The notes beneath the pieces are model-generated. The model worked only from the letters and a program-made list of their open reading frames with translations. It searched no databases and was not told the DNA's origin. Both the position numbers and the translations under genes were made by a program. From IMG/VR virus record IMGVR_UViG_3300042569_002972, positions 1-22,826 of that record: a DNA stretch of 22,826 nt; one strand, written 5' to 3'. Shown piece after piece: positions 2-22,826 of the stretch; within the stretch, counting starts at the first letter, position 1, and every line of letters begins with the position of its first letter. The DNA is from a virus.

Positions 2-1468
2 AATGACTGTTTGTCCACTAGAGAGCTTTTCTTTAAGAACAAGGCAGAGATTGTGTTAAGAAGTGATTTGTCCAAACACTTTAGAATGAACTTGCTTAAT
101 CATTCTGAACCCAAGTTATCAAAAAGTATATTTCTAAAATTGCTTTCTGAAAAACTTAAAGTATCTCCACACATACTTAAAAAACAAAAGACATACCGCA
201 AGGTTATTAATCTCAATGAAGCAATATTACCATATATTGAATTCAAAACACCTGAGTTAAAAGCTACGCTGTCAAAGTTTAAAAAGTTAAAGCTTGATGG
301 AGAAAATCTTAAAGGTTCATTTAAGCATGAAGTAACTTACCGAGGATTGACATTATCTTTTGCATTAGGTGGAATTCATGGGGCTAAGAAAGGTATATAC
401 AAATCAGATAAAGATTTTATCATTAAGTCTTTTGATGTAACAAGTTTCTATCCTAACCTTGCTATTAGAAATCAGTGGGCTCCAGCGCATATTGATAAAA
501 AAGCATTTTGTGAAATCTATGAAGGATTCTTTGAAGAAAGAAAGAAGTACAGCAAAAAAGATCCGCTCAACTATGTGTACAAAATTTTGCTAAACTCAAC
601 CTATGGTTTGTCTAATGAAGACAACTCATTCCTAAAGGATAGCATGTTTACTATGCGCATTACATGTAATGGTCAGTTGCTATTGGTAATGTTAATAGAA
701 GAGTTATGTGAATCTATTCCTGGTGCCAGACCAATCATGGTTAATACTGATGGTGGTGAGATAATTATTCCTAGAGAATATGAAGAATTATATCATCAGA
801 TATGCAAAGAATGGGAAGAACAAACTTTGTTGCAGTTAGAATTTGAAGCGTATGAAAAGCTAATCATTCCTGATGTCAACAATTACATCGGCATCTTTGC
901 GGGTAAAGAAATTACTAAAGAAGATGCAGTCAAGAAAATCAAAAATGAGTTTCCAAAACCACTAATCAAAAGAACTAAAGACAACCGATACTTATGGTAT
1001 CCCACTAAAAGTAAAGGTAGGTTTGAAGTTGATAAACCATTGCACAAAAACAAAAGCTTTCGCATTAAGAGAATAGCTTACTACTATTATTTTGTTCATA
1101 ATCAAAGTCCAGAAAAGACTTTAGAAGAGAATAAGAAAATATATGATTACTGTGCAGGAGTTAGAGCAGTTGGTAGTTGGAAATTCTTTTTAACCTGCAT
1201 GACTAATGGAGAACTTGATCAGCAAAGTGCACAAAAAACTTTAAGGTATTACATGTCCCTAAAAGGATGTAAGATTCTTAAAGTTGATGGAAGCAGAGCT
1301 ATTAAAGTAGAAGCTTCAAAAAGTTTAGAAAGAATTATGAACAAGTTTGAGAATAAAGAATTTGATGATTATGAAATTGATACTCAGTATTACTTGAGAG
1401 AAATCAATAAAGAAATCAATAAGATTATGCCTTCTCAACAAAAAAACTTATTTTTCAATGAGGATTAA
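2..1468 (+). CDS. Family B DNA polymerase, C-terminal part (5' end outside window)
   Basis: The reading frame is open to the left edge, so the gene is truncated and the TTG at 11 need not be a start. Numbered from that TTG, it shows the family B palm and fingers motifs: GGIHGA (120-125), motif A DVTSFYPNLA with the metal-binding Asp142, motif B KILLNSTYG (191-199), and motif C NTDGGE (245-250). In motif C the first Asp of the usual DTDS is Asn; the second Asp (D247), the essential metal ligand in the family, is kept. The 3'-5' exonuclease region would lie upstream, outside the window. It synthesises phage DNA, most likely with the helicase encoded two genes on. It overlaps the next gene by 11 bases, suggesting one operon and translational coupling. 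The family call is secure; the full length is unknown. Confidence 0.93.
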   Translation, partial: NDCLSTRELFFKNKAEIVLRSDLSKHFRMNLLNHSEPKLSKSIFLKLLSEKLKVSPHILKKQKTYRKVINLNEAILPYIEFKTPELKATLSKFKKLKLDGENLKGSFKHEVTYRGLTLSFALGGIHGAKKGIYKSDKDFIIKSFDVTSFYPNLAIRNQWAPAHIDKKAFCEIYEGFFEERKKYSKKDPLNYVYKILLNSTYGLSNEDNSFLKDSMFTMRITCNGQLLLVMLIEELCESIPGARPIMVNTDGGEIIIPREYEELYHQICKEWEEQTLLQLEFEAYEKLIIPDVNNYIGIFAGKEITKEDAVKKIKNEFPKPLIKRTKDNRYLWYPTKSKGRFEVDKPLHKNKSFRIKRIAYYYYFVHNQSPEKTLEENKKIYDYCAGVRAVGSWKFFLTCMTNGELDQQSAQKTLRYYMSLKGCKILKVDGSRAIKVEASKSLERIMNKFENKEFDDYEIDTQYYLREINKEINKIMPSQQKNLFFNED

Positions 1469-2837
1469 CAGAACACAAACAGAAGATTATTTAAGAAAAA
1501 CAAAATTACCCCAAGCAACTAAGTCATATACTGTGATCTCACACAGTACAATTATTGATACACTTAGAACTAAGCTTGATGAAAAAGGATTCATTATCAA
1601 AAGTGAATTATATAAAGCAGAAGATGCCGGTGATGTAGCAATGGCATTTATTCAAATTGAAAATAGCAAAGACCCAGACATGGGTATGACATTTAACTGG
1701 ACCAATTCTTATAATAAGAAGATTCGCTTTGGATGCTCTGTAGGAGGTTTTATTTATGATAATGAAGTTCCATTCATCTCATCTAGTAATGCAGCGTCTT
1801 GGCTAAGAAAACACACAGGTACGGCTCTAAATGATACCATGCAGGTAATTGATGCAATGATTGAATCTGCAGAAGATCACTTTGATGCAATCATAGCCAT
1901 GAAAGATAAATTCAAATCTATTGAAGTATCTAGAAAAGATTATGCTAAACTGATTGGTTTGTTGTACTTAGACAAAAAGATTCTTACTCCTAATCAAGTA
2001 AGTTTAATCCGTGTTGAGTATGATAAACCATCCTTTGATTACAAAGACAAAGGCACTTTATGGGAATTGTACAAAATGATTATGTTCGGTATTGCTGAAA
2101 ACTCACCTAAGAAATGGTATGAACAGCAAATGCAGATTAGCGCATACATTCAAGTGATGTACAATGTAGCTGTAGAAACAAACATTGAAGATGCAACTGA
2201 CCAACTAAAGTTAGAACTTGAGTCAGAAGAAGATGAATCTACAGAAACAGTAACTGAAGAAGTCAATATGGAAAGCATTGATAACTTAATTCAAGCTCAA
2301 AATATGATTCAAGAAGCAGACTATTCTAAGAAAGAAAGACTTGAAGAAATTAGAACTGAATTAGATAATGAAACAGTTAGTTACGGAGAGCTTGTAGAAC
2401 TTGAAGAGTTGTCTGAATTTATTGAGGAAGATGATGTTCAGTTGTTAGAAGCAGCGGGTGTTCCTGAATTTGAAGATGATGTAATCCTTCCTACAGCTCC
2501 AATGTCAGTAGAAGAAGTTGAACTTGTTCAAGAAGAATTTGGCATTATTGAAACAGGCAGTCCTGATGATGGTTATGTCGGTTCTACAGCTGATACTGAT
2601 TCCCTCTTTGATCTAACAGAGGAAGTAGAAGAAACACAAGAAGAGATAGACACAATGTCACTATTCACAGAAGAACCAAAAGTTCAAAGTATAGTGCCTC
2701 AAGAATTCCAAGAGAGAGTAGATGAGATGCTGACATCACAGTATCAAAACAAAAGACGTGTAGTAGATGTCACCAAAGGCATAGACCACACAGTTTTTGA
2801 GCTAGACTCCAAAGAATTCTTTGTTCTAGAAAATTAA
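1458..2837 (+). CDS. DUF932-like phage protein with acidic C-terminal tail
   Basis: This 459-residue protein starts at the ATG overlapping the end of the polymerase gene. Residues about 25-245 resemble the DUF932 phage/plasmid family by eye. There is an SHSTIIDTLRTKL-type helix, then a strand-rich part with NSYNKKIRFGCSVGGFIYDNEV, which recalls that family's NS.DKS...GxxVFVCDN core, then helices. From about residue 250 to 440 the chain is dominated by Glu and Asp with low complexity, so it is probably disordered; such a tail could mimic DNA or bind basic partners. DUF932 has no established biochemical role. Its place between DNA polymerase and helicase suggests a part in replication or recombination. 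I am confident that it is a real gene, only moderately of the family, and do not know its function. Confidence 0.6.
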   Translation: MRINRTQTEDYLRKTKLPQATKSYTVISHSTIIDTLRTKLDEKGFIIKSELYKAEDAGDVAMAFIQIENSKDPDMGMTFNWTNSYNKKIRFGCSVGGFIYDNEVPFISSSNAASWLRKHTGTALNDTMQVIDAMIESAEDHFDAIIAMKDKFKSIEVSRKDYAKLIGLLYLDKKILTPNQVSLIRVEYDKPSFDYKDKGTLWELYKMIMFGIAENSPKKWYEQQMQISAYIQVMYNVAVETNIEDATDQLKLELESEEDESTETVTEEVNMESIDNLIQAQNMIQEADYSKKERLEEIRTELDNETVSYGELVELEELSEFIEEDDVQLLEAAGVPEFEDDVILPTAPMSVEEVELVQEEFGIIETGSPDDGYVGSTADTDSLFDLTEEVEETQEEIDTMSLFTEEPKVQSIVPQEFQERVDEMLTSQYQNKRRVVDVTKGIDHTVFELDSKEFFVLEN

Positions 2838-2841
2838 TCCT

Positions 2842-2889
2842 TGGCGATGAAGTAGCCGCATGTAAGAGTGCGGTTACTATCATCAGCCA
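2842..2889 (+). promoter_or_regulatory. Long imperfect hairpin upstream of the helicase gene
   Basis: Bases 2842-2860 pair with 2869-2889 to give 19 base pairs, with one G-U wobble (2855/2874), two single-base bulges (2879 and 2885) and an 8-base loop, TGTAAGAG. It lies in the only gap in the window longer than 10 bases (2838-2903) and ends 14 bases before the ATG at 2904. No T run follows on either strand, so it does not look like an intrinsic terminator. It could control helicase translation, mark an RNA processing site, protect an mRNA end, or be a protein-binding site or origin element. The structure is directly visible; the role is inference. Confidence 0.7.
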
Positions 2890-2903
2890 TCAATCCCCCA
2901 ACA

Positions 2904-4214
2904 ATGACATTAGAACAATTAGTCAATGCCAGAAAAGTGGCCATAGACTTTACCGATGGACAAAAACAAGCCCTAATTAAAGTACATAAGTTTTTAAAAT
3001 CAAATAATCAATTTTTCCTCCTAGCAGGATATTCAGGATGTGGTAAAACAACTCTTGCAGAAAACATTGCAAATGCTACTAACGCAGTCCTATTAGCACC
3101 AACTAATGCAGCAGTAACTAGATTATCAGAAAAAATCAATAACCCTTATTTAGAGTATTTTACTATTCACTCATACTTTAACATAAGTGTTGCCGGTAAA
3201 GGTGGATATATTGAAAAAAAACATCAAAAAAATACCGTTCTCATTATTGATGAGTGCTCTATGATTGATGAATATGTACTTGACATTATTGTTGAAAATG
3301 CTCTAAAGCAAAACTTTAAAGTAATTTTTATGGGAGATAGTTTTCAGTTAGAACCTGTAGGACACAATCCTCAAATTTTTAACTGGGATAAAAATGTTAA
3401 ATACAGGTTATACTTTCGAAGTCATAACAAGTATGAATTAACTGAAGTCAAAAGATATGACGGTAGTTTATTAAAGATTGCAACTCAAATCAGAGAAAAT
3501 AAAAAATCTCTGTTTAACCAACCTGAAAATTCTGATCTATCCATAGTACCAAGATTTAGCAAAAGTCTCTTACATAACATTAAACTAGATAATCCATACA
3601 TTGTATTGACCTCTACAAACCAAAGAAGAGTTTTATACAATGCCAAAATTAGAGCAATTAGGTTTAATGATCCGGATATATCAGAATATGCTCAACATGG
3701 GGATAAACTTGTTTCTATAGCCAATACTATAAATTACAATAATGGTGAAACATTTAAAATTAACAACCCTCGGTTTGTTAAGAGTTTTAAAATTAAGCTG
3801 GTTAAAAAAGAAAAACAAACAGAATATGAATGCTTGTATTATAAACACAGTTATAACCAAAGGACTATTCTTATTCCAGAACTTGTAGAAGCAGGTGTTT
3901 CAACATATGAATTAGAATCTGTAGTTAAAGCAGGGTTAATAGAAATTGATCAAGTATTACTGCATGAATTGTTCAAATTTGATGTTGGCGCTAAATATCA
4001 AAAGAAAGTAACATTTGATAAATCTATAAATATTGCAACCTACGGTTATGCAATTTCTTGTCATAAAGCTCAAGGTCAAGAATGGGATAATGTTTATATA
4101 GATGCTGATTGGCTAATGCCTGTATGGGATTCAGCTAAATGGTTTTACACAGCTATTACAAGAGCTAAATGCAAAGTAGAAGTAAGAGCAAATAGATATT
4201 TAAAAATAATTTAA
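2904..4214 (+). CDS. SF1 DNA helicase, RecD/Dda-like
   Basis: This superfamily 1 helicase has 436 residues from the ATG at 2904. The in-frame GTG at 2868 would add 12 residues but lies across the loop and stem of a hairpin, so I prefer the ATG. Numbered from the ATG, visible motifs are: Walker A GYSGCGKT (42-49), motif Ia APTNAA (65-70), Walker B/motif II IDECSM (115-120), motif III GDSFQLEPV (144-152), motif V CHKAQGQEW (about 386-394), and motif VI YTAITRAK (415-422). The order, the UvrD_C_2-type C-terminus and the length match T4 Dda-like helicases (about 440 residues). It would unwind DNA 5'-3' using ATP, for replication start, fork movement or recombination next to the polymerase. The downstream gene begins one base after its stop. 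Confidence 0.93.
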   Translation: MTLEQLVNARKVAIDFTDGQKQALIKVHKFLKSNNQFFLLAGYSGCGKTTLAENIANATNAVLLAPTNAAVTRLSEKINNPYLEYFTIHSYFNISVAGKGGYIEKKHQKNTVLIIDECSMIDEYVLDIIVENALKQNFKVIFMGDSFQLEPVGHNPQIFNWDKNVKYRLYFRSHNKYELTEVKRYDGSLLKIATQIRENKKSLFNQPENSDLSIVPRFSKSLLHNIKLDNPYIVLTSTNQRRVLYNAKIRAIRFNDPDISEYAQHGDKLVSIANTINYNNGETFKINNPRFVKSFKIKLVKKEKQTEYECLYYKHSYNQRTILIPELVEAGVSTYELESVVKAGLIEIDQVLLHELFKFDVGAKYQKKVTFDKSINIATYGYAISCHKAQGQEWDNVYIDADWLMPVWDSAKWFYTAITRAKCKVEVRANRYLKII

Positions 4215-4215
4215 C

Positions 4216-4518
4216 ATGGTGCTAAAAAGAACATTAACTAGAAAAAGCATTCTAGGATTTGGAAATGATTCACTTAAAAATCTTTCTGTCCAAGCAGCAA
4301 TTGATTTAGGTAAAACTAGATACTTAGCTCGCAGTTATTTCAATCTTGAAAAAATCAGTTTTACTGATGATATTTTAGATGAACTTGGTATAACCCTTGA
4401 ATATAGAATTGAAAAGCCAGGCACAAGTGAAAAGAAAAGAACTGCATACTTTGAAAATTTGGTATCTAAAATGACACCAGAAGAAAAATACAACTATCAA
4501 AAAGTTAAAAAAAAATGA
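4216..4518 (+). CDS. Small basic phage protein, unknown function
   Basis: This 100-residue Lys-rich protein starts one base after the helicase stop and ends in an ATGA overlap with the next gene, so it is firmly within the operon. Residues 4-55 form a compact block, with a basic LTRKSILGFG stretch, a helix with LGKTRYLARSYF, and FTDDILDELGI. The general shape (basic GFG turn, then LGK..YL, aromatic residues and an acidic helix) faintly recalls short DUF3820-like phage proteins, but I would not assign it. The C-terminal third is charged and probably flexible. Its position suggests an accessory role in DNA replication; function unknown. Confidence 0.75.
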   Translation: MVLKRTLTRKSILGFGNDSLKNLSVQAAIDLGKTRYLARSYFNLEKISFTDDILDELGITLEYRIEKPGTSEKKRTAYFENLVSKMTPEEKYNYQKVKKK

Positions 4519-4736
4519 AACAAACAGCAGTAGAATGGTTTTCTAAGAACTTAAAAGATTTTCCTCACATAAAACATTCTCAATCATTTAAGGACTTAGT
4601 TATAAAAGCCAAAGAAATGGAGAAGGAGCAGAAGATTAAGTTTGCGGAAAATTGTTTAGACAAAGCATTAGACTTAGATATTAGAACTGCATTTTCTAAT
4701 GTAGAGAAATACTACAACGAAACCTTTAAACAATGA
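4515..4736 (+). CDS. Small helical protein, unknown function
   Basis: This 73-residue protein is linked to both neighbours by 4-base ATGA overlaps, which supports its being translated despite its size. It is predicted to be entirely helical: an N-terminal TAVEWFSKNL helix, a middle segment rich in Lys/Glu (KAKEMEKEQKIKFAE) and a short C-terminal helix with paired Tyr. The layout, with an aromatic TAVEW start and an AKEMEKEQ helix, resembles small orphan proteins common in phages of Bacteroidota. No catalytic motif, membrane segment or Cys pair is present. Function unknown. Confidence 0.75.
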   Translation: MKQTAVEWFSKNLKDFPHIKHSQSFKDLVIKAKEMEKEQKIKFAENCLDKALDLDIRTAFSNVEKYYNETFKQ

Positions 4737-5605
4737 GCACCGTTGAGAAAGTAGTTAGAAAAAGTATGATTATTAGACCATCCGGGCGTAGTACTGATTT
4801 TATTGCGCCCAGTTTTGGTCACGGCTGCTTATATGAATGCGGCTACTGCTACATGAAAAGACATAAACCTTACGGTTTAGATATTGCAACCAATCCCAGT
4901 CAAATCTTAACAGAGATAAATAATCATGCAGCATTTGCAGATGTAGTAAAACCTAATCAAACTCATTCTGAGTATATAACTTATGACATTTCATGCAATG
5001 AAGATTTTGCACTTCATGCTAAATATCATCAGTGGGAATATATATTTGATTTCTTTAAAATGCATCCTGTGGCAATGGGATCATTTGCTACAAAGTATGT
5101 TAACAAAAAACTTCTTGCTTTTAATCCTGAAGGTAAAATTAGAATTAGGTTTAGTTTAATGCCTCAGATTTTTGCTGATAAGTTAGAACCAAACACTAGT
5201 TCTATAGAAGAAAGATTAAAAGCTGTAAGTTTATTTAAAGAAGCCGGTTATGAAGTACATCTTAATTTTAGTCCTGTAATTGTATCACCTAATTATCTTA
5301 GAGATTATTCAAAACTTTTTGTTCAGGTCAGCCAGTATGCAGAAAAAAACGGATGGGATAATAATTCTGTAAAAGCAGAAGTAATTTTCTTAACGCATAA
5401 TGCAAAAAAGCATCAATACAATTTAGATAATAAAATACCTGGAGAAGATTTATTGTGGACTCCAACAACCCAGGAAAATAAAATATCTCAATATGGCGGA
5501 ACAAATATTAGATACAAACATGAATTAAAGGCTGATTACATCAAAGATTGGACTAATTTACATGATGATATTATTAATTGGAATACCATTAGGTATATAT
5601 TTTAA
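4733..5605 (+). CDS. Radical SAM protein, spore photoproduct lyase-like
   Basis: This 290-residue protein has the radical SAM cluster motif C-x3-C-x2-C at Cys32, Cys36 and Cys39, within GCLYECGYCYM. Two Tyr flank the third Cys (Y38, Y40), as in the YCY of spore photoproduct lyase. DISCNEDFALHA places a Cys (C88) where that enzyme has the Cys acting as hydrogen donor (CTSD context). RIRFSLMPQ (136-144) followed by EERLKAV..FKEAGYEVHLNFSPVI also follows the lyase family. Such enzymes use SAM and a [4Fe-4S] cluster to reverse the thymine dimer 5-thyminyl-5,6-dihydrothymine. About 60 residues found before the cluster in Bacillus SplB are missing, so it is a compact version. It starts by ATGA overlap after a small gene. 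Repair of phage DNA is the natural inference; another radical SAM substrate is possible. Confidence 0.85.
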   Translation: MSTVEKVVRKSMIIRPSGRSTDFIAPSFGHGCLYECGYCYMKRHKPYGLDIATNPSQILTEINNHAAFADVVKPNQTHSEYITYDISCNEDFALHAKYHQWEYIFDFFKMHPVAMGSFATKYVNKKLLAFNPEGKIRIRFSLMPQIFADKLEPNTSSIEERLKAVSLFKEAGYEVHLNFSPVIVSPNYLRDYSKLFVQVSQYAEKNGWDNNSVKAEVIFLTHNAKKHQYNLDNKIPGEDLLWTPTTQENKISQYGGTNIRYKHELKADYIKDWTNLHDDIINWNTIRYIF

Positions 5606-6644: not shown

Positions 6645-7028
6645 ATGCAAGAACAAATCAAAATGGTTTATGAATTTCACCAAAAATTCAAACAAGAGCA
6701 AAAAGATAAACCTGGTTTTATCACAAGACACGAGTCTGCTCTTAGGTATTCATTAGGTAAAGAAGAACTTGATGAATACATTCAGGCAGTAAATGAAGAA
6801 GATATGATTGAAATTCTTGATTCATTAGCAGATCAACTGTATATACTGTTTGGTACAATTTGTAAACATGGATTACAAGATCATATTGTTAAAGCATTTG
6901 AACTAGTCCATCAGAATAATTTATCTAAACTGGGGCCAGATGGTAACCCTATTCTTAGAGCTGATGGTAAAATCATTAAACCTGTTGGATTTAAAAAAGT
7001 AGAATTAAAAGATGTGTTAAGCTTGTAA
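6645..7028 (+). CDS. MazG-like NTP pyrophosphohydrolase
   Basis: This 127-residue all-helical protein carries the metal-binding signature of the MazG/PRA-PH NTP pyrophosphatase fold: EELDE (40-44), followed by EILDSLAD (56-63), giving ExxE and ExxD ligand sets for Mg2+. HQNNLSKL (89-96) and a later GPDGNP..RADGK loop are typical of the phage branch of this family. It would hydrolyse a nucleoside triphosphate to monophosphate and pyrophosphate, cleaning up or rebalancing the nucleotide pool during phage DNA synthesis. Phage MazG proteins have also been linked to host alarmone control, but this cannot be read from sequence. It has one domain, shorter than the two-domain E. coli MazG (263 residues). 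Confidence 0.85.
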   Translation: MQEQIKMVYEFHQKFKQEQKDKPGFITRHESALRYSLGKEELDEYIQAVNEEDMIEILDSLADQLYILFGTICKHGLQDHIVKAFELVHQNNLSKLGPDGNPILRADGKIIKPVGFKKVELKDVLSL

Positions 7029-7031
7029 CTT

Positions 7032-7583
7032 ATGGAAAAAATAAATGTAGATCTGTTAGCTGAAATGGGCATGTATGTTCAAAAAAGCAAAACCTTTTTG
7101 TGGCCTCTACTTAATCTTAAAATACAACCAATTGAAACTTATTTAAAAATTGGTGATTTAGATTTAGAAGATAACCGTGTACTTATTGCACTATTTCACA
7201 ATGAAAACGCCCAATATATTAGCATGAAAAAAGAAATAGAATCACATCCAATGTGTGATTTTATTTTCAAAGACTCAGAGTTTGATATTGTTTTCTTTAA
7301 CATGTACAAAATTAAAGATGACTATGATATGTTAGTTCAAGGTAGCTATTCCAAATTGTCTAATAACTTTAAAATAGTTATATCTGGAGTAGAAAAAAGA
7401 AAGCCTGTCTTGATGTGTTTGTATCCTGAAAACAATTACAAAGAATTCGCTGAAGTCTTAAACATACATGAGCATGAACTTGAGGGGAAAGAATTACTCT
7501 CTCCCCCTAACAATGAACATGAAACAATGTATGTTATACCAACTATTAAAGAGCAAATTATAGAAGAGTACGGACTTAATTAA
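7032..7583 (+). CDS. Hypothetical protein, 183 residues, last gene of plus block
   Basis: It begins three bases after the MazG-like stop. It is mixed alpha/beta, with strands such as DNRVLIALFH, FDIVFFNMYK, FKIVISGV and RKPVLMCLY, and no recognised motif or membrane segment. It may be a single globular domain. Its TAA lies in a TTAATTAA palindrome that also ends the minus-strand gene coming the other way. A weak hairpin (7484-7491 with 7499-7506) sits inside its 3' end. Conserved position cannot be judged here; function unknown. Confidence 0.75.
   Translation: MEKINVDLLAEMGMYVQKSKTFLWPLLNLKIQPIETYLKIGDLDLEDNRVLIALFHNENAQYISMKKEIESHPMCDFIFKDSEFDIVFFNMYKIKDDYDMLVQGSYSKLSNNFKIVISGVEKRKPVLMCLYPENNYKEFAEVLNIHEHELEGKELLSPPNNEHETMYVIPTIKEQIIEEYGLN
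7576..7583. other. Shared convergent stop palindrome
   Basis: The 8-base palindrome TTAATTAA holds the TAA stop of the plus-strand gene (7581-7583) and, on the other strand, the TAA stop of the giant minus-strand gene (7576-7578). The two transcription blocks therefore meet with no intergenic DNA and no separate terminator on either side. Confidence 0.95.
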
Positions 7584-13500: not shown

Positions 13501-13605
13501 TTGTTTATCCATGAGTTCCTTATATATCAACTCAGCTAATAAAAAGTTAGGTTCCTTTTTAAGAATACTTTGAAACTCTGGTGAATTTGGATTTACACAA
13601 CTCAT
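7576..13605 (-). CDS. Giant zincin-containing protein, probable virion cargo/ejected protein
   Basis: I place the start at the ATG at 13605 (2009 residues), because it overlaps the upstream stop as ATGA; a GTG at 13614 would add three residues. A zinc protease motif HEFSH lies at 235-239, followed about 50 residues later by EEAIV (288-292), a plausible third-ligand Glu of a gluzincin. The rest is long, mainly helical and rich in Gln, Asn and charged residues. Near the C-terminus is a hydrophobic segment (about 1820-1840: LALAYAISMVINML) directly followed by five Asp and Gly (1844-1849). In crAss-like phages, giant proteins next to the RNA polymerase are known to be packaged and ejected, and zincin domains occur in injected phage polyvalent proteins. 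I infer a packaged protein that may cleave itself, a virion partner or a host target, or cross the membrane. Confidence 0.75.
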   Translation of the reverse strand: MSCVNPNSPEFQSILKKEPNFLLAELIYKELMDKQNVVLYDDVRDLKEAAPDKRNKEFIGSTENWGYPLIDTVMRLTDKEVAALMKRPEYKITNPLDQDRFTELVNAVGEKEAYRDYFEHNQVVRTSEAVIEKLNERLESEDFDPINTITDLDNGSEFGFDDFIKDFNKTVDTVNQSKAIAVATKMSEQLGIPFEVITMDDMERLFPGQPYRQNFYQAGKVYLVAGAFDQNSVFHEFSHPIIKSMSVQNPELFQSLFNELGQTELGQQIINDLIADPHYNQGTREFMEEAIVRSLEAINADESAAPKGFISNLFFQIKQFLRKMFGKKVDVSKLNSKTKLKDLVNMINYGEEFILDTDFLNQDLMVMFQTDYDQLKAQLKDSAAKQTQELMNNFYNVVKVQLANFKAENDIFKLIESQLADENREGVLNQMQQILEGLATIGSNKLVKPLESLNITGNAALDADIIEFNNKISSFVQVLSMTDQMFDLFNKKLIELQKNGVTENEDFDQLFAIMQYNDDWLEKLQQWKNEFTTTSLVSGSVAFTDIIDPVTGLSSNPIRDALDDLINKLQRTKSMSNALQVDSVIDVLYDHLTKQLAPVKKDYLEQMASLKAAGSLAQYNRLHQEYYGVTAEEMAEMNRLKAKSPQTLTREEEIRLEELTRKSYDSHNITKEALRARAEGRLGDSRKWNGLLESYLSNQDVIVGGFYSFLMKTFNTIDGNANARRSEMLEGLKPLLAAAGYDTHWLGEGQLGKDIGQVNRSYEKDEYGNIQEFMEYKFISNFINWEFDLQKLRQDIVTARQNYNSNPSQANKDAWTQAKNALEQFESDYMNREYVQAFYDVKNKYFSTPEGEKAREALQDVFDRMQIIAENVDIDPTNFGSVEELNKLWNEYQRLHSLYDVDGNEKTGIAKDIAEILSGYRNDISEFYEWEEREDAFENAFARFNQALIDQGKIPGEPAHTEAVRKWLETNTTIAVKEEFYQIREQLLEARSQTIQPIVDINNSLVDLAPMYAKVYAILKPTKDNFNQFDGNQLTPTAQITIRDIQQTIATVKDQWIQLFGGSKDELRKYREIEFFRDRNNGQFRDEDDANYYYGFWDEMQARLEDDFNITKADMDFVRDLDKTLSSMSVSGLTQYYISAFMDFANTNDESMEIFERMFPDLDIAEGDVPTSEQIYEVVTSPYWSASLSKVNADFKSWFERNHYQQMADEYDSTGNFVGEYLANRPTSAWKFSIPEDNQYYETKSVIGTGVPNTFAPNGFIELDGIPRIPTRAYYRRKVKEEFKTQKVERDYVDANGNLVLANVDNRDQWLPKDFNPGDTGSAKDSKYIDGNYKKMFETERAKWNLLDHLRTSHLNNQRGLDNSQKLYLSYPRYRKGVTEGYDKNYFRRKAARINDALYGGADDAEYGLFLGSSTRLNYKTLTRPIGGSYKLPIIDVSTNIIDSMMDHAYSIEHFKGMRKVNSFANVFENAMVNLAANPQKTELEKKLNDAALLTAKESDTQERIKQIRSILNKHFKGEQLSETNSTMIGIVRGTVALQRWMSFTSFALDPIKSLTNYFGGKSMMWKKAAEGMIYNAQDVALTRGKSASAISELIATMYSNKQVSPKLQLLDVLGAIPGNLKKEIGARGSKTVQQSIMEGKFFYFDRRYLSDSVPVHQFYAILNHNSFMLDGKKTTLDDAVELVNGKIQTKPGVPKDMSISYDAEGNVVLGDKLKDLMNEHQSLLQKSLGIGNEFTEAEVYRTAIGKFVFFLMKFFPGMLLDRYQIRTKKGKRGQRRLNYATRRAEAGTYLSAITLIQELISNKGRFWQFNAYSWQAKKGALQLALAYAISMVINMLSSTVGFDDDDDGLIDFTFDPNAENIYSQLRKSTSLPQLPLISEKRTLVKSNRNFDPETYLKLQLLRLELRVKREEETFMPFNALGTAGDLAMLNSPLSDGGGVKTIKDISKSLYQTYWLDDPDLYERAAGPYVFQEADKNKAWNLALKSIGLSGSLIDPATSIERENSDFFN

Positions 13606-16600
13606 TTGTAACACTCTTTTAGTAATTCAATAATTTCATTTTGTTTTTCAGGACTTGCCTTTTCAAGAGCTTCCTCAATATATTTTTGAGCTTCACTACT
13701 TGATTTACCTTTAAAGAACTTTGCAGTAAAGTTAGTTAATATAGTTTGTTTTTGTTCTGCAGTAAATGGCAAGGTATCATAAGTGTATTTACTTACACTA
13801 ACAGATGGTTCAACTATTGGAGTAGACCAATCATATTGATTAATTAAATAATCTAATGCAGTAGCATGCGTAGCATAACCCTTTTCTTGATAATAAAGAA
13901 TAGAAGATCCTTTAATTTTGCCTGAAAGAATATCATTAATGATTGCTTGTCTATATTCTTTAGTTGCATTGACATTTCCTAAATTATCTCCAGTTGTCAT
14001 CCAGTAAATAAACTGCATGGTAGTTATTTTTCCAGCTTCATCTCTTGATGTTTGAACATTTTGCCAATCAAATGGATTTCCAATAGTCAAACTATCTTTA
14101 TAATTCTGCAAAAATGATTTTTTAGAATTACCTCTATAAGCAATAATAAGAGCTTTTAATTTTCCGGTTTTTCTATTTAATTTATTATCAAACAATGTGC
14201 GGGCTTCAGGTACAATATCAGACCAAAAGTTTTTACCTGTGTATTTAGTATTTACTTCTAAATCAGAAGGCAAAATAACATTTTCAGATTTAGTTTTGTT
14301 ACCAAGCTTATTATAAATTTCTTCTGCTTTTGACTTTGTTCTTTGGGGGTTTACAGCTGCTGGTTTTTTAGAACCAATATCACTTCTAAAGCCCATCAAG
14401 ATTTCTTCAACAACAGAATCAAATAAAGTATTACCTACAACAATACGACCTGAACCTTGACTTAATTCATTTTTTAAGCGGAATCTAAAGCCAATTGTAT
14501 TATTGCTACGGTAAGACTTGTCTAGATCAGCAATAGCTTTAAGTATTCTATCCTTGACAATATTTTTACCCTCATTAATTAGTTCAGTTGATGTTAAAGA
14601 GTTAAACCATTTAGGAGTAAAACGCTTATCACTTTCATATAATGCATCCAATAAAGCATTGTATACAGAACTTGTTCTAGTATCTATTTCAGAAGCTGCC
14701 GGATCAAAATTTTGACCTTCTGTTTTATTCAACTTAGAAGCAGAAACTACTTCATAGTATGTTCCAAGTTCAGTGTATTTAACAACTGGAACAAAACCTT
14801 TTTCTTTTAAGTAGTTCAAAGCCATTGTATCAATACCTGATGCAGTTCCAACATTAAAAGTAGTTACACCTGCAGCAAGAGCTTTATCAATTAATGGTTT
14901 GTGATATGCATTAAATGTCTTTTCAATTTCTGCAATAAACTCTTCCTTGTTTCTACCTAAGTAAGCGCGTTCAGTAATTGTACTACCAAAAATCCAAACC
15001 TTATCTGTAGCAACAAACTGTTCTTTAGTTGACTTAGCTTTAGTCAATTTGCCAGGATAAACTTTTTCTAAGGCATTAGCATAAGCCTCCGATGAAGATT
15101 CATATTGCTTATTAAAAGGTTTAGTTGCAGTACCAATAGCTTTGGTAGATGCATTAGCCATAGCTTCATCTTTAATGGCGTATCTGGCTTTTTGAATTTC
15201 AGATTCACCAATAGATAAGAAACCTTCTTTTAAGTTTTTAGATTTATACTTTAATGAAGGTAGCTCTTGAGAGTTATCAATACCTAATACTAATAAAGCT
15301 TTATCTAATTCCTTTTGACTTTTTCCTTCAGGAGCAACTAATTTTTCATTTTTAATTGACCAGTTCAAAGTTCTAATAGAATTAGCAAACTCAAGCGGGG
15401 TAATGTTAGGATTATTATAGAACATAGCCGCTGTCAATAGTTCTTGACCGGCTGCTGCTGTTTTATTAACCGGAATAATAGTAATCTTGTTTTGAGCAAT
15501 CTTAGATTCTTTTAAAGACTTTTCTTTAGAGAAGCGTAGCTCATCAACAAGATAGCTAGTACCACGGACCTTAGTGCGCAGACCATTGTTTTTAATCTTC
15601 TCAACAAAGATCTCTTTAAACTGATCAACAATTTGTCCATCTTTTTTACCTTCACGAACAGCAAAGCTTTTTTCTAATTCCTGAAGAACATCATTAATGT
15701 AAGGTAAGCCTATTTCATTTTCAATAACTTCATTAAATAAGTTTTGATCAAGTATTTTAGCAAAATCATATTTAGATGTACGGTTCATACCAGTTTGCAT
15801 AATACCGATGTGAGAAAGCTTTCCAAAGAATTCAGCAACTTCTCTTTCAGGATAATTTTTTAACTCCTCAACATTTTCTTTATACACAGCCGCCATCTGA
15901 GCATCTTTAATCTGTGGAAAGTAAATGTTCATTTTTTTAAGAGAGTCACTAAAATCATAATTAACATCTCTGAAAAAAGCATACTGATTAAGCCCTGGAT
16001 ACTTAGCAGAAAAATTACGCAAGATGTTACCTACTCCTACAGATAAATCAAATAAAGCATTTACATTATTTGTATGGTAGAGTGCAGCTCTTTGTAAAAT
16101 AATATTGCGGCCTGTGACAGATCCATAGTCCAAGAAAGAATTATTTGGATTATCAAATTGATAGAACTTTTCTTTAAATTCATTATCTGAAAGTTCCTCA
16201 GAGGCAGCTTTTAAATTGTCATACTCTAGTCTAAAAGTTACCCATTCTTTTGGTTGAGCTGCATTAAAGAATTTAGATGAATAAAGAAACTCTGCCATAT
16301 TGATATCTAAGATCATGGCTTTAGGATGGTATTTTACCACACCTGTTTCTTCATTAACTTCCATGCCTTTTCCTTGTGGTAAATTTACATCTTGTTCTAA
16401 AATATAAGTTTTACCCGGAAGCGCAGAACCATCCTCATAATATTTACTTGGAGATGTAGTATAAGATTTACGGTTATATGCGGCATTTTGATATAAGAAC
16501 CACATAAAGTCATTCTTAAATTCTGTAAGTACTTTTCTTGGATCAGATCCTTTTGGAGTTTTAATACCTAAAGATCTAAGGACAAGAGCCCTGTTATTCT

Positions 16601-19600
16601 TAATCTTAAAGTATTTAGAAAACAAATTAACAATAAACTCATCATTATTGAATTTACCAATTGGTGTATCAAGTAATGCATCAAACCAATAATCCGGAAT
16701 AATTTTATCTTCTATTGCAGTAAGTTTAAACTCAGCAATATCTTCAATCCTTTTTTGAGCCTCGGTAATATTAGAGATTTTATTAGTGTCAAACTTAGAT
16801 AACATTGTAAATGCAGTAAGTGCATTAGCCATGTTTTCAATCTGCACATAATGAGAAAGAATTTCAACATCCCTAAATGTTGGTTCACTACCTAATCTTG
16901 ATTCAAGTTCTGTGGGACTGAATGGATCAGCTGCATTAGCAATTCTATCTATATTGAACAGAGTAGTTTTAGTTTTATTTTCTGGATTCTTTGATGAAAA
17001 TAAACCTTTGTATTTTTCATAAAGAAAATCTAAAGCTGTACCTTCTTTGTTAGGATCAGTAATCCCTTCAGCAACTTTATTAGCTTTAGCAAATACACCT
17101 TCATTTTCTTTTTTAAGTTCATTGTATTCTAATACTAATGGATTGTTTACCATATTAATTACAGAAGATGTACTTATACCTGCCATAACCATGAACAAAA
17201 GAATAGGGCTATTTTCTTTAGTACCCTGAGCTTCAAAAATCCAAGCATCCTTAGCTACATCCACATAACCATTAATAAGTTGAGAAATAATATCAGATAC
17301 TTGTTGTCCATCAGCATTTTTCATAATACCTAAAGCAACGGCATTATCTTTTTCATTAAGATTATAACCTATTTTGCCATCATCTGTAATGAAATTTAGC
17401 TTCTTGTTCTTAAAGTTGTCAATAGTTTTAAGAGCACGGAGATATGCGGGACTGTTTACTAATGACTCATTTTGAAGAACTTTAAGAGCGTTTTCAAACT
17501 TGGCTTGGTCTTCAGCTGAGGTAGCTTGCAAAGTGGCACCAAAGGTTGTAAATATTGCATAAAAAGTAGATGAAATAGCAGCAATACCTAATGAATCTTT
17601 ACCAACAGAGTTTTCTTGGTGCTTTAACAAGTTATAGCGATATTCAAAAATAGAAGTCTTAGCAATTTTATCTGAAGCAGAAGATGAATTTTTCTTATTG
17701 CTTAATTTGTTATATGACTTTTTAATTTGTTTACCTGCAGCTCTTGCTAAAGGTTCTACACTATCTGTTGTGTTAGGTGTAACCAATAACAATAGATTAT
17801 CCGGCATTAAAACTCTTTCTGATAACAAATCAAATAATTTGTTTTCTAGACCCTTTACACCTTTACCTGCTATCTTTCTTTCAACTGATGCTTTTTCTTC
17901 ATTGTATTGGTTTAATTCAGCTTCTATTGCTGAAATATCTGCCATGTACTCTTCATACTTTTGCCCAACAGCTTGTTTGCGATCCTCCTTATTAAGAATC
18001 TCTTTGTCAAAAAATGCAGTTAATTTATTCTGAATGTCAGAACGCAAATAATTAATAGAGGAATTTAAAGCATCAATTTCAGATTGAAGCTCTGCATGAA
18101 CAGATCTTTGTAATTCTTTTGGATACGCCTTATTTTCAGCTACCTCTTTTTTCTGACTGTACTTCTGATCAATTTCATCTTGAATAACCGCAATAGCTTC
18201 AAAAGAACTTTCAATATCTGCATTGACCTGAGTTTTATTCTCTAAGTAATCTGTATACACAGCCCAAGCTTGGCTAAGCTTTTCGCTTGTGGCTTTAATC
18301 TTTTCATCTATAGGAATAATCTGAGCACGCAGTTCATCATAAGATTCAGTTACAGATGGATCATAAACAACTTGTTCAACCTTACCATTTAAGTTGATAA
18401 GATTTTTAAACATGTTAAATAACTTATCAATGTCAAAGTCAGATCCGGTTTGTGAAGTAATCTCTGTAGGCAAAACAATAATAGGTCCTGCCCATTCAGG
18501 TAAAAATTCAGCAATTGTTGCACTGGTTAATGCATTTGGTCCCTGTGTAGGAATACGAACTCCTGGAATAGAAATGTAATCAGAATATTGATCTAACCAT
18601 TTTGTGTCCTTAATGGCTTCATTTAACCTTTTAAGTGATGCATCATAATCTAATTCATTTTTACCTTCTTCAGTTTTAAAGTAAACCGCTACTGAATTAC
18701 CATCAGGATGTGTAGTATAAAAAAGTTTCTTAAAGTCACCTTGTAAAGCTACTTTAACTTCCATAGCTTGTACATACTTTTGACCATCCGGACTTACTGC
18801 TTCATTACCATTCTCATCTTTTAAATAATAAAACTTGAGACCGTTGGAGCCATACTTTAAACCTTCTTCTCTAGTAGCTTTTTTAAGAGATGTTTCATAC
18901 ATGGTACCGGAAACCTGCACCAAGGCTTCTCCATTAACAGATATCCTTCTTAAAGTTTTATCTACTAGAGCAACAAGTAACTCTTCTAACTTTTCACTAA
19001 TCATAGAAAGCGATAAGTCATCAATAAGAGTACCATCTGGTTTGGCAATAAATTCAATTTCAGAAGGTAGGATTTCTTTGTTTCTTAACTTGTCTTGGAG
19101 ATACTGTTTTAGTTTAGATGAATCCCCGCTATATCCAACAACTTTGCCATCAACTATAGTTTCTTTTAACTCTATGTCTTCTAATAGTTGATTCTTTAAT
19201 ACCTCTTGCATTTTATCAAGAGTGTTATTAAAGTTTTGCAACCATCTCCATTTAGCTGATTTCTCTAACTTTTGTTTTGGAGATAGGGCTTCCCATGCTT
19301 CTTTAATATTTTTCTTGCCAGTATAAACAAAATCTGTAGGTACACCGCCATCCATAATACCAATGGTAGCAATCTTACGAAGCTGTGTAGGTAAAGATAT
19401 GTGTCCTTTAAAGCCTTCATCTAAAAAGATCTGACTCTTTAAAAACTTAATGTGAATAACATTAGGCGTAAACTTAAAGTCCGGATCTTCAGTTACTGTT
19501 CTAGTTTTTGCATCATAGAAATTATCAACATCAGCTTCAAAAGTCTTAGTGTCTTTGTTCACTTTTACTTTAGAAAGAGTTGAAAGTTTAGAACCGGTTT

Positions 19601-22600
19601 GCATTGTAACATAATCAATACCTTGCTCCATCATTTTTTCATGCAAAGTTTGCAAGTGAGTGCCTTCAATTAATTGAGGAACTAATGGTACTAAAGAGTA
19701 CTTATGAAATGCCATGTTGTTTAATGACAAACCTAATGTACCCAATAGTTCTTGTGTTTGTGGATTATTTACCTGGCCATAGTATTGAAACTTTCTAGCA
19801 GGGAATGTAGTAACTAAATCTTTTTTCAAGATTTTTTCACCAGATAGCATTTTTTGATACAAATTTTCTTGTGCATCAGACCACTCATTAATTGAAATAT
19901 TTAATAAGCGATAAGTATCAAATGAAACCCAACCTTGAGCATCCGCTTCTTCAATTGCCCCACCTTCAGCTTCATATTTATTGCTATCTAAGCCTAGCAT
20001 TTTGCGATAATGATCCGCATATACTGAATTAGATTTAGCTTCTTTGATAATAGCTGTATTTAAATATCCTGAATATGAGTAATCAGCAGTAATTCCCTTT
20101 TCTGTATTATGCTTTTTAGCAAATCCTTTTGCATTAAATTTTTCAGAGTTTAAAAACTTTAACCATGCATCATCATGTCTAAATATTTTACCAGTAGAAA
20201 TTAATCCAGCAATACGTTTATGAAAATCTTCACCTTCTACATTAAAGACAGAAGAATCACCAATAAATAATGAACCGTAATTAAGGTTTTGAATAAAGTT
20301 ATTAATTACAAAAGTTCTAAATAACTTATCATTTACTGATTCAATTGATTCATCTTGATTAGTGTAATCTTTGTAAAGGTTATCAGAAATAACAATCTTA
20401 TTAGCAAACTCATTCATCAGTAAAGCAGCTTCATTTCTAAAGTACTCTACAAGAGCATTTTCAATTTCAGTTTTTAATGGAGTTGATAAAGCATCAATAG
20501 TAAATCCTTTATCTCCTAGAATACCATCTAATGAAATAGATTCAAGTTTACTTTTTAACTCAGGATTAAATATTTTATCAAATACAAACCAATCTTCTCC
20601 GCGATTAAGTTGTTTAACATCAATTGCAATTTCTGAAGGATTGATTTCTCCAGACAACAACATTTCTTTAATCTTACGGATTTTTTGAATGCGGATAATT
20701 TCTGCAGCTATGTGATTTTTAAATTCATTGTAAAGAATTTTACCTTTATATCCTTCAGAAAAAATTGATTGAACCTCACCTTTATCCACTAGTAAGTTAG
20801 AACCTTTTCTAGTTTCTGATCCTTTTCTTGATGGAGCAAACACCGTTAATGAAGTAGATTTAGCTTCAGATCGCATGATCTCCTGCTTGCCTTCTAAAGT
20901 TAAATGGAAATCACTAATGAATTTAGTTTTAATATCTGAACCCATGGACTCAATACCACGGTCAGTTTCCCAGCTAATAGGCTCATCATAGATTTCACCA
21001 GTTGTGTCATCTTCTTTTTCTGAGATACCTTTATATTTTTGAATAAGCTTGGATCCCGATAAAGCCTCTACTGAAATTTTAATACCGTAATCTCTCTTAC
21101 CTCTTTTAGTAGGCGCATGCACAGAAGGATCTAATTGGAACATGTCAATGAGCCATTTAGATGATGCCGCCTGCGGATTAGTATATGGATCTAAATGCTC
21201 CATACCTTTAATCTTTAGGAAATCTTCAAGTGTTGCTGCCTTATTTATTTCTGATACAGTTACTAAAAGACTTGAGTTTAATGATTTCTCACTAACCAAA
21301 TCACCATTAGCATTAAAGCTAGAGAAGTTGGTATAGTCATTAGAATAAATATATTGCAGTTCTCTTAATTGAGTTAAGAAGCCAGAAAGATCTTGTTGTT
21401 CTACAACTTTATTGTTTTCATCAAAGTAGTTGAATTTTCTAAATAACTGATCTAAGTTGCCAATAAACTTACCATTGGTATCTACTACCCATCTTTCAAG
21501 TTCAGAATCCCAAACAGCTTTGGTCATTCTATTTTTGATGGAATTATTAATATACTCAGTAATGGCAGCACTTATACCTAATTCAGAATCACCTCTAAAT
21601 AAAATTTTTCTAACATCCTCATCTTCTACCATATCTATACCAAGAGCTTTTAAAAACTCAAATGGTTTAGCAATAGCTTCTACTTTAGCAAATAAAGTAT
21701 ACTCCGCATTTTTAGATTTTTTAGGATCATTTTTAGAAGTAATATTATTTGGCCCAGGTCCTTGTATTTTGGCATAAGTTAATGAGTCAGCTCTGTTAAA
21801 ATCAAGATAAAGATTTTCCAAATTAAATACAGGCACACCACCTAACTCATCAGCATAAGGGCTTTCCGTCAACAAGAATTTGAAATTAGCTGCCCACTTG
21901 CGGGTAACTTGCAAACTCATAGAAGAAGACTTACCTGATTTAGATATTAAAGTAACAACAGGATTATCCGGATCAGTTTCATCTATTTCTTTTTCTAAAA
22001 TAAATTCACGGAGTAAAACATCTGCTTTATTAAATGATTCCCAGAATCCGGTCCATTGTCTATGTTCAGCAACAGTAATATTATCAGTAAAATCCAGTTG
22101 TGAAATATCACCTAATCTTCTTAGTAATTGATCAATTTCTTTATCGGTTTTTGCAGCATCCTTGAGTTTAGCACTCATGTCCATTGCATCTGGAGTATTG
22201 CGTAAAAGTTTTGCTACTTTAGCAATTGCATTTTTGGTAGGCATAATTTTCTTAAAGCCTAATCCATTTAGTTGTGGCACACCTTTTCCTTGTTCAGTAT
22301 ATTGCTGAATAGAACCAAGAATGCTTAATGTTTGCCCATCAATTAATTCATCAAATAATTGCTCATTGCCGGAACGGTCCCACAAAGGAACATAGTTTTC
22401 TTCTTCAGTTGCTTTGACATCATAAAAATCTTCATACTCAGTTTTTTTCAAAACCAAGTCACTGTAATTTTTTAAGAAGTTTTCAATTAAAGATTTTGGT
22501 ATTTGCTCTTCACCTTTTAATCTAGCTGTTTTGTTTAAATCAGATAGCTTGCCAAAATTTTCAGGGTTTAGTATTTTTTCTAAAAGTTGTTTTTGAAATA

Positions 22601-22826
22601 CCAACGCAGTGCTTTCACTTCTTTGTTGTGCATTTTTATCTTCAATTTTAGAAATAGACTCAAGTTTATTGTTTACATCATTGAGCCTTTGTTCAAATCT
22701 AGCTTTGACATAATCAACAGCTAAACTTAATAAGCGCGGATTAGCGGCAATGTTAAACACACCTTGACCTGTTCTAACTGAACTACCTTTTTCATCAAGT
22801 AGTTTTAAATCATTTGCTAATTGTTT
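13602..22826 (-). CDS. Giant virion RNA polymerase, crAss-like (5' end outside window)
   Basis: The frame is open through the right edge, so the gene is truncated at its start; at least 3074 residues are present (numbered here from the edge) and the GTG at 22760 is not a required start. The catalytic signature DFDID is at 1463-1467, preceded by RIPTQGPNAL (1424-1433) and IAEFLP, matching the order in cellular beta' (RAPTLH ... NADFDGD) and the DFDID motif of the crAss-like phage phi14:2 RNA polymerase. A region at about 1040-1150 with VPQLIEGTHLQTL, IDYVTMQTGSKL and PTQLRK may be the other double-psi barrel, with its lysines. A coiled coil spans about 1504-1650. The C-terminus holds a SLOG-like domain (2610-2700) and a DUF4326-like region (about 2870-3000). 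It is expected to be packaged, injected and to transcribe early phage genes. The polymerase call is strong; subdomain calls are by eye. Confidence 0.88.
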   Translation of the reverse strand, partial: KQLANDLKLLDEKGSSVRTGQGVFNIAANPRLLSLAVDYVKARFEQRLNDVNNKLESISKIEDKNAQQRSESTALVFQKQLLEKILNPENFGKLSDLNKTARLKGEEQIPKSLIENFLKNYSDLVLKKTEYEDFYDVKATEEENYVPLWDRSGNEQLFDELIDGQTLSILGSIQQYTEQGKGVPQLNGLGFKKIMPTKNAIAKVAKLLRNTPDAMDMSAKLKDAAKTDKEIDQLLRRLGDISQLDFTDNITVAEHRQWTGFWESFNKADVLLREFILEKEIDETDPDNPVVTLISKSGKSSSMSLQVTRKWAANFKFLLTESPYADELGGVPVFNLENLYLDFNRADSLTYAKIQGPGPNNITSKNDPKKSKNAEYTLFAKVEAIAKPFEFLKALGIDMVEDEDVRKILFRGDSELGISAAITEYINNSIKNRMTKAVWDSELERWVVDTNGKFIGNLDQLFRKFNYFDENNKVVEQQDLSGFLTQLRELQYIYSNDYTNFSSFNANGDLVSEKSLNSSLLVTVSEINKAATLEDFLKIKGMEHLDPYTNPQAASSKWLIDMFQLDPSVHAPTKRGKRDYGIKISVEALSGSKLIQKYKGISEKEDDTTGEIYDEPISWETDRGIESMGSDIKTKFISDFHLTLEGKQEIMRSEAKSTSLTVFAPSRKGSETRKGSNLLVDKGEVQSIFSEGYKGKILYNEFKNHIAAEIIRIQKIRKIKEMLLSGEINPSEIAIDVKQLNRGEDWFVFDKIFNPELKSKLESISLDGILGDKGFTIDALSTPLKTEIENALVEYFRNEAALLMNEFANKIVISDNLYKDYTNQDESIESVNDKLFRTFVINNFIQNLNYGSLFIGDSSVFNVEGEDFHKRIAGLISTGKIFRHDDAWLKFLNSEKFNAKGFAKKHNTEKGITADYSYSGYLNTAIIKEAKSNSVYADHYRKMLGLDSNKYEAEGGAIEEADAQGWVSFDTYRLLNISINEWSDAQENLYQKMLSGEKILKKDLVTTFPARKFQYYGQVNNPQTQELLGTLGLSLNNMAFHKYSLVPLVPQLIEGTHLQTLHEKMMEQGIDYVTMQTGSKLSTLSKVKVNKDTKTFEADVDNFYDAKTRTVTEDPDFKFTPNVIHIKFLKSQIFLDEGFKGHISLPTQLRKIATIGIMDGGVPTDFVYTGKKNIKEAWEALSPKQKLEKSAKWRWLQNFNNTLDKMQEVLKNQLLEDIELKETIVDGKVVGYSGDSSKLKQYLQDKLRNKEILPSEIEFIAKPDGTLIDDLSLSMISEKLEELLVALVDKTLRRISVNGEALVQVSGTMYETSLKKATREEGLKYGSNGLKFYYLKDENGNEAVSPDGQKYVQAMEVKVALQGDFKKLFYTTHPDGNSVAVYFKTEEGKNELDYDASLKRLNEAIKDTKWLDQYSDYISIPGVRIPTQGPNALTSATIAEFLPEWAGPIIVLPTEITSQTGSDFDIDKLFNMFKNLINLNGKVEQVVYDPSVTESYDELRAQIIPIDEKIKATSEKLSQAWAVYTDYLENKTQVNADIESSFEAIAVIQDEIDQKYSQKKEVAENKAYPKELQRSVHAELQSEIDALNSSINYLRSDIQNKLTAFFDKEILNKEDRKQAVGQKYEEYMADISAIEAELNQYNEEKASVERKIAGKGVKGLENKLFDLLSERVLMPDNLLLLVTPNTTDSVEPLARAAGKQIKKSYNKLSNKKNSSSASDKIAKTSIFEYRYNLLKHQENSVGKDSLGIAAISSTFYAIFTTFGATLQATSAEDQAKFENALKVLQNESLVNSPAYLRALKTIDNFKNKKLNFITDDGKIGYNLNEKDNAVALGIMKNADGQQVSDIISQLINGYVDVAKDAWIFEAQGTKENSPILLFMVMAGISTSSVINMVNNPLVLEYNELKKENEGVFAKANKVAEGITDPNKEGTALDFLYEKYKGLFSSKNPENKTKTTLFNIDRIANAADPFSPTELESRLGSEPTFRDVEILSHYVQIENMANALTAFTMLSKFDTNKISNITEAQKRIEDIAEFKLTAIEDKIIPDYWFDALLDTPIGKFNNDEFIVNLFSKYFKIKNNRALVLRSLGIKTPKGSDPRKVLTEFKNDFMWFLYQNAAYNRKSYTTSPSKYYEDGSALPGKTYILEQDVNLPQGKGMEVNEETGVVKYHPKAMILDINMAEFLYSSKFFNAAQPKEWVTFRLEYDNLKAASEELSDNEFKEKFYQFDNPNNSFLDYGSVTGRNIILQRAALYHTNNVNALFDLSVGVGNILRNFSAKYPGLNQYAFFRDVNYDFSDSLKKMNIYFPQIKDAQMAAVYKENVEELKNYPEREVAEFFGKLSHIGIMQTGMNRTSKYDFAKILDQNLFNEVIENEIGLPYINDVLQELEKSFAVREGKKDGQIVDQFKEIFVEKIKNNGLRTKVRGTSYLVDELRFSKEKSLKESKIAQNKITIIPVNKTAAAGQELLTAAMFYNNPNITPLEFANSIRTLNWSIKNEKLVAPEGKSQKELDKALLVLGIDNSQELPSLKYKSKNLKEGFLSIGESEIQKARYAIKDEAMANASTKAIGTATKPFNKQYESSSEAYANALEKVYPGKLTKAKSTKEQFVATDKVWIFGSTITERAYLGRNKEEFIAEIEKTFNAYHKPLIDKALAAGVTTFNVGTASGIDTMALNYLKEKGFVPVVKYTELGTYYEVVSASKLNKTEGQNFDPAASEIDTRTSSVYNALLDALYESDKRFTPKWFNSLTSTELINEGKNIVKDRILKAIADLDKSYRSNNTIGFRFRLKNELSQGSGRIVVGNTLFDSVVEEILMGFRSDIGSKKPAAVNPQRTKSKAEEIYNKLGNKTKSENVILPSDLEVNTKYTGKNFWSDIVPEARTLFDNKLNRKTGKLKALIIAYRGNSKKSFLQNYKDSLTIGNPFDWQNVQTSRDEAGKITTMQFIYWMTTGDNLGNVNATKEYRQAIINDILSGKIKGSSILYYQEKGYATHATALDYLINQYDWSTPIVEPSVSVSKYTYDTLPFTAEQKQTILTNFTAKFFKGKSSSEAQKYIEEALEKASPEKQNEIIELLKECYK

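Follow-up and report, generated by a model that had tools for sequence, protein, structure and literature searches.

A cysteine-type protein of the spore photoproduct lyase family in a phage replication gene cluster: a candidate enzyme for light-independent reversal of UV lesions

Main finding

The stretch of viral DNA analysed here (22,826 nucleotides, hereafter the window) carries, at 4733..5605 on the plus strand, a gene for a 290-aa radical SAM protein of the spore photoproduct lyase (SPL) type, which was assigned by profiles and tree to the TIGR03886 branch of the family and which has a cysteine at the position of the hydrogen donor (Cys-type). By analogy with SplB, we think it probable that this phage Cys-type TIGR03886 enzyme reverses a thymine-thymine photoproduct independently of light. 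No description of a phage SPL was found in the open-access papers searched; if our reading is true, this would add viruses, for the first time, to the known sources of SPL-type repair enzymes. The enzyme is widespread, and phages may bring their own light-independent eraser of UV damage.

Gene, catalytic residues and family assignment

The open reading frame starts with the ATG at 4733, and its stop codon ends at 5605. The protein contains four cysteines in total, C32, C36, C39 and C88. The first three form the CxxxCxxC cluster motif, which together with Y38 and Y40 occupies residues 32-40 (CLYECGYCY; 4826..4852, +), and C88 (4994..4996, +) is by alignment the equivalent of the hydrogen-donor Cys, i.e., C140 in Geobacillus and C141 in B. 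subtilis. In the alignment with SplB, C32/C36/C39 correspond to C91/C95/C98 and Y38/Y40 to Y97/Y99 (B. subtilis numbering), while in the phmmer alignment C88 shares its column with C140 of 4fhc, which is replaced by Ala in 4fhe (C140A); SplB entries were the only PDB matches obtained by phmmer. All six residues are identical in 82 of the 82 aligned sampled homologues. The preliminary description of this DNA had named the radical SAM Cys triad, two flanking Tyr and a Cys at position 88 matching the hydrogen donor, and each of these is borne out at this ORF.

Among the NCBIfam profiles, TIGR03886 (lyase_spl_fam) was the best family match by far (6.9e-87, 291.8 bits), with a score below the equivalog cut-off of 437.55 bits and a match to profile positions 62-346 only. 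The Pfam SPL profile (PF20903) matched at 2.1e-20 and 73.4 bits, above its gathering cut-off of 27, and the SplB equivalog TIGR04070 at 2.5e-21 and 76 bits, below its cut-off of 400. The E-values, together with the residue conservation, exclude a chance match of the ORF to SPL.

Predicted structure and the short N-terminus

An AlphaFold model of the window protein, built from 40 window and viral-type sequences, reached a pLDDT of 92.4 and a pTM of 0.90. The six top structural matches were all SplB entries, with Z scores of 29.6-29.8 over 278 residues and an rmsd of 2.3-2.4 A (VIA-align), in comparison to a Z score of 14.0 for the next family, RlmN. The overlay on Geobacillus SplB, which had been proposed earlier as a check, is thus in favour of a predicted SPL fold. 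Residues 1-290 of the model superpose on SplB 58-341 (VIA-align), and the phage protein is therefore an SPL without the first 57 SplB residues. Among the predicted viral proteins of BFVD, the best match had only 12% identity, and the name spore photoproduct lyase did not occur among the 50 matches listed.

The shortening at the N-terminus, noticed before from the sequence, proved to be real and to mark the clade. A missed N-terminus was considered and rejected, since an in-frame TAA lies two codons 5' of the start (TAA ACA ATG) and short forms occur across the whole viral clade. The ATG overlaps the stop codon (ATGA) of a 73-aa ORF (4515..4736, +), homologues of which were found in about 12 SPL loci; supply of the missing segment in trans by this ORF was unsupported, as no resemblance to the SplB N-terminus was seen by eye.

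Phylogeny and the two active-site types

In the trees with bacterial homologues, which were rooted at the midpoint, the window protein sits in the TIGR03886 branch (branch support 99/99 and 100/100) and outside the SplB clade. Orthology with SplB was rejected, given the 76 bits in comparison to a cut-off of 400 and the placement in the other branch of the tree at 100/100. The earlier suggestion of a working spore photoproduct lyase thus holds in part: the predicted SPL fold, the donor Cys and the Tyr pair agree with it, while the placement in TIGR03886 rather than in the SplB branch, with 27 differing positions, does not. No report of a biochemical assay of any TIGR03886 member was found in the open-access literature.

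The phage short forms make up one clade (support 100/99), which forms a group with the short Bacteroidota proteins L089, L235 and L250 and the viral L164 (98/100), and the full-length Cys-type Bacteroidota proteins join this phage group at weaker support (86/49). Because the phage short forms group with short Bacteroidota proteins, the phage form seems to derive from a Bacteroidota-type ancestor, with the N-terminal segment lost before or at its entry into phages.

The position of C88 divides the branch. Glu was found there in the TIGR03886 proteins of Deinococcus, Alphaproteobacteria, Actinomycetota and part of one Bacteroidota order (motifs YDLGENGD and YEIGENGD), and Cys in the other Bacteroidota (YDIGCNSD) and in phages, as well as in SplB and the SplB-like paralogues. 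The viral proteins L108 and L109 are of the Glu-type and group with Glu-type cellular proteins. The state at this position changes once on the tree, and with this midpoint rooting Cys is inferred as the ancestral state on grounds of simplicity, since SplB has it too. Apart from the donor position in the Glu-type, the catalytic set is common to all SPL groups. Among 75 aligned proteins, 23 positions are common to all groups and 27 set TIGR03886 apart from SplB, including T221-H222-N223 versus R-F-T, Q247 versus R and R260 versus V, in comparison to two positions only, C88 and T83, that separate the Cys-type from the Glu-type. The donor Cys versus Glu therefore appears, in these alignments, to be essentially the sole consistent difference between the two types. 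C141A SplB makes an off-pathway sulfinate as its main product, which is why the Cys retained in phages and its loss in the Glu-type are informative. Proteins publicly named 'spore photoproduct lyase family protein' thus fall into two active-site types, one of them without the hydrogen-donor Cys, so that a function should not be assigned on the name.

Several cellular genomes (G181, G252, G334, G457, G473 and many of the order of G252) have a second, SplB-like Cys-containing paralogue besides TIGR03886, and on a Roseomonas plasmid (L105) the two genes are adjacent and overlapping. On plasmid P1 of Deinococcus gobiensis (L100:2794-6553), an SPL-family gene is followed by genes for a DEAD/DEAH helicase and a DUF790 protein, presumably an XPB-Bax1 repair pair.

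Virus identity and genomic setting

The gene lies, as had been proposed, in a replication setting. Upstream on the same strand are the C-terminal part of a family B DNA polymerase, which runs off the window (2..1468, +; phrog_1252, 2e-98), a 459-aa protein with a weak DUF932 match that is also found beside the polymerase in relatives (1458..2837, +) and a Dda-like SF1 helicase (2868..4214, +; phrog_325, 3.5e-77), and downstream follows a MazG/PRA-PH-like nucleotide pyrophosphohydrolase (6645..7028, +; PF01503, 6e-13; phrog_671, 1e-33). The SPL gene within a polymerase-helicase cluster was also observed in three related contigs (L205-L207).

The minus strand encodes a giant protein with an SDFDID motif and a match to the crAss-like catalytic RNA polymerase, which runs off the window (13602..22826, -). 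Its matches include Cellulophaga phi14:2 g066 and the Rudgehvirus RNA polymerase catalytic subunit, and crAss-like phages are among the matches, with others, of the family B DNA polymerase. A crAss-like RNA polymerase and a family B polymerase are thus both present, at a remote 21-32% identity, and judged by these low-identity matches the window virus is a distant crAss-like phage. No capsid, portal or terminase gene was recognised within the 22.8-kb window. Beside the RNA polymerase protein lies a 2012-aa protein (7576-13614, -) that is conserved in the lineage and had no match in PHROGs or annotated phages.

The place in a replication cluster, along with the many kinds of radical SAM enzymes that phages use according to the BFVD list, would also suit an enzyme that hypermodifies normal thymine or another base of phage DNA and has no part in repair. 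We regard this as improbable, given that no thymidine-hypermodification gene was recognised among the window genes scanned, that the protein retains the Cys and Tyr pair specific to SPL and that the nearest cellular relatives are bacterial SPL-family proteins; lesion reversal is the reading we prefer.

Distribution among phages and selection

A relative is encoded by at least 597 IMG/VR stretches, which belong to several phage lineages, and the best 80 of these at least 597 loci are about 69-100% identical. A scan of viral contigs with a Deinococcus protein gave more relatives, some of them full-length and encoded in contigs of 56-321 kb (L106, L107, L108), and a scan with Bacillus SplB gave one 'viral' contig, L183, which is possibly host DNA. 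In the 50,697 annotated phage records there were two matches only, at about 23% identity; these gut phages (MT835770 and MT835514) were set aside as a distant group with Tyr at the donor position and long branches. The pattern-based search of GTDB contigs yielded three matches only. In a Kordia MAG (L083), the SPL gene adjoins phage head genes, and a scan of viral contigs with this Kordia phage protein, which used narrow patterns, gave no match.

The polymerase cluster of the window is common to only about 16 of 166 SPL-bearing loci, a large second carrier lineage being characterized by an SF2 helicase, a DnaB-like helicase and a primase. Within the window lineage the SPL gene is accessory: of 11 contigs that have the Dda-like helicase, 6 carry it, and some of the 5 without it are perhaps incomplete. 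As most carriers are outside the window lineage and the presence there is patchy, the gene has moved among phages or has often been lost. The 22 carrier records examined, which may be incomplete, yielded no photolyase (PF03441). Carrier phages probably have Bacteroidota as hosts.

The 6 of 11 presence, and the occurrence in unrelated lineages, could suggest a host-derived passenger gene of no use to the phage. This we consider very hard to believe in view of the large viral clade, the invariant catalytic residues and a median pairwise dN/dS of 0.19 among 156 SPL coding sequences, which indicates purifying selection.

Some carrier loci have further features of their own. In both L206 (7843-9689) and L210 (about 1250-3130), an apparent split intein divides the SPL gene into two ORFs. 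In the first, ...GCLYNCTY is followed by an intein N-half (TIGR01445, above cut-off); the second starts with an intein C-half (TIGR01443, above cut-off) that ends in HN before CYMKRH, which makes the third cluster Cys of SPL the +1 residue. In L206, the two halves are separated by an antisense ORF (7991-8875) that matches HNH weakly. The organisation resembles the 'fractured gene' split-intein arrangement, reportedly described by Dassa in 2009. In L107, a PurA/PurZ-type synthetase (phrog_1211) is directly upstream of the full-length viral SPL and ThyX is downstream (3934-4932 and 6806-7621), and a link of the synthetase and ThyX to modified-base DNA is possible. The 321-kb contig L108 has a bacterial-type Ku gene (2064-2933) about 2 kb upstream of its Glu-type SPL, and this SPL has a Cys beside the position of SplB S76, which lies close to the alternative donor site in Clostridium SPL.

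Proposed function

In SplB, the 5'-deoxyadenosyl radical abstracts H6 from the lesion, C141 gives a hydrogen to the allyl radical and Y99 with Y97 recycles the radical to 5'-deoxyadenosine (PMC5368176, PMC3742179), and each of these mechanism residues (C141, Y99, Y97) has a counterpart in the window protein. Following SplB chemistry, a [4Fe-4S] cluster bound by C32/C36/C39 would cleave SAM, and the resulting 5'-deoxyadenosyl radical would abstract the C6 hydrogen of the dihydrothymine-containing thymine-thymine photoproduct, after which the bond between the two thymines would break. The thymine allyl radical would then receive a hydrogen from C88, and Y40, aided by Y38, would pass the radical back to 5'-deoxyadenosine. 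The outcome would be a direct, light-independent reversal of UV lesions in phage or host DNA during infection, presumably at replication.

A role of the TIGR03886 branch in UV repair is supported by the neighbours of its bacterial genes, which include DinB and uracil-DNA glycosylase, photolyase and the DdrO-type regulator ddrOP3, by the Ku gene near the SPL of the viral contig L108, and by the UVC induction of an SPL-family gene in the non-sporulating Curtobacterium (PMC12029717). The SPL activity of Deinococcus gobiensis was inferred from homology in the paper concerned (PMC3314630).

The exact lesion may differ from that of SplB, since 27 TIGR03886-specific positions differ. The same chemistry could act on another thymine adduct, formed in hydrated or single-stranded DNA, rather than on 5-thyminyl-5,6-dihydrothymine, with the Cys-type retaining the hydrogen donor and the Glu-type lacking it. 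Besides these positions, the 25% identity of the window protein to SplB in comparison to 42% to Deinococcus TIGR03886, and the presence of TIGR03886 and SplB-like proteins together in several genomes, as if for separate jobs, are in line with such a division. However, the protein has the SplB catalytic set around SAM and the donor Cys, and no alternative lesion is indicated, so that we hold this alternative to be possible but clearly the less likely one in comparison to reversal of the SplB-type photoproduct.

Spores and dry DNA are where the spore photoproduct is known to occur. The dense packing and poor hydration of DNA inside a capsid make damage in the virion, as raised in the preliminary description, an attractive idea. 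It is conceivable, though we think it rather unlikely, that spore-photoproduct-type lesions arise in the packed DNA of sunlit virions and are erased on entry by a dedicated light-independent enzyme that many phages carry, the Cys/Glu switch separating lesion-reversing enzymes from others. The question of whether packaged phage DNA contains spore-type photoproducts is thereby made testable.

Comparison with known systems

Three known groups can be compared with the window protein. SplB (TIGR04070; 4fhc and 4fhd, Geobacillus thermodenitrificans) is like it in the predicted fold over 278 residues (Z 29.8), in the CxxxCxxC motif, the Tyr pair and the donor Cys, and in the 23 conserved positions common to all groups, but differs from it in having residues 1-57, which the window protein lacks, in an identity of only about 20% in the structural alignment and in the 27 branch-specific substitutions. 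The Glu-type TIGR03886 proteins of Deinococcus, Methylobacterium and Streptomyces are about 36-43% identical to the window protein and share its branch-specific residues, whereas their donor position is occupied by Glu (20 of 20 aligned) and their N-terminal segment is retained; the phage form is short and has Cys. The Cys-type Bacteroidota TIGR03886 proteins (L088, L222-L233, and the short L089, L235 and L250) are the nearest cellular neighbours of the phage clade; most of them, unlike the window protein, keep an N-terminal segment of about 60 aa, and at an identity of about 43-44% they have the donor Cys in common with it.
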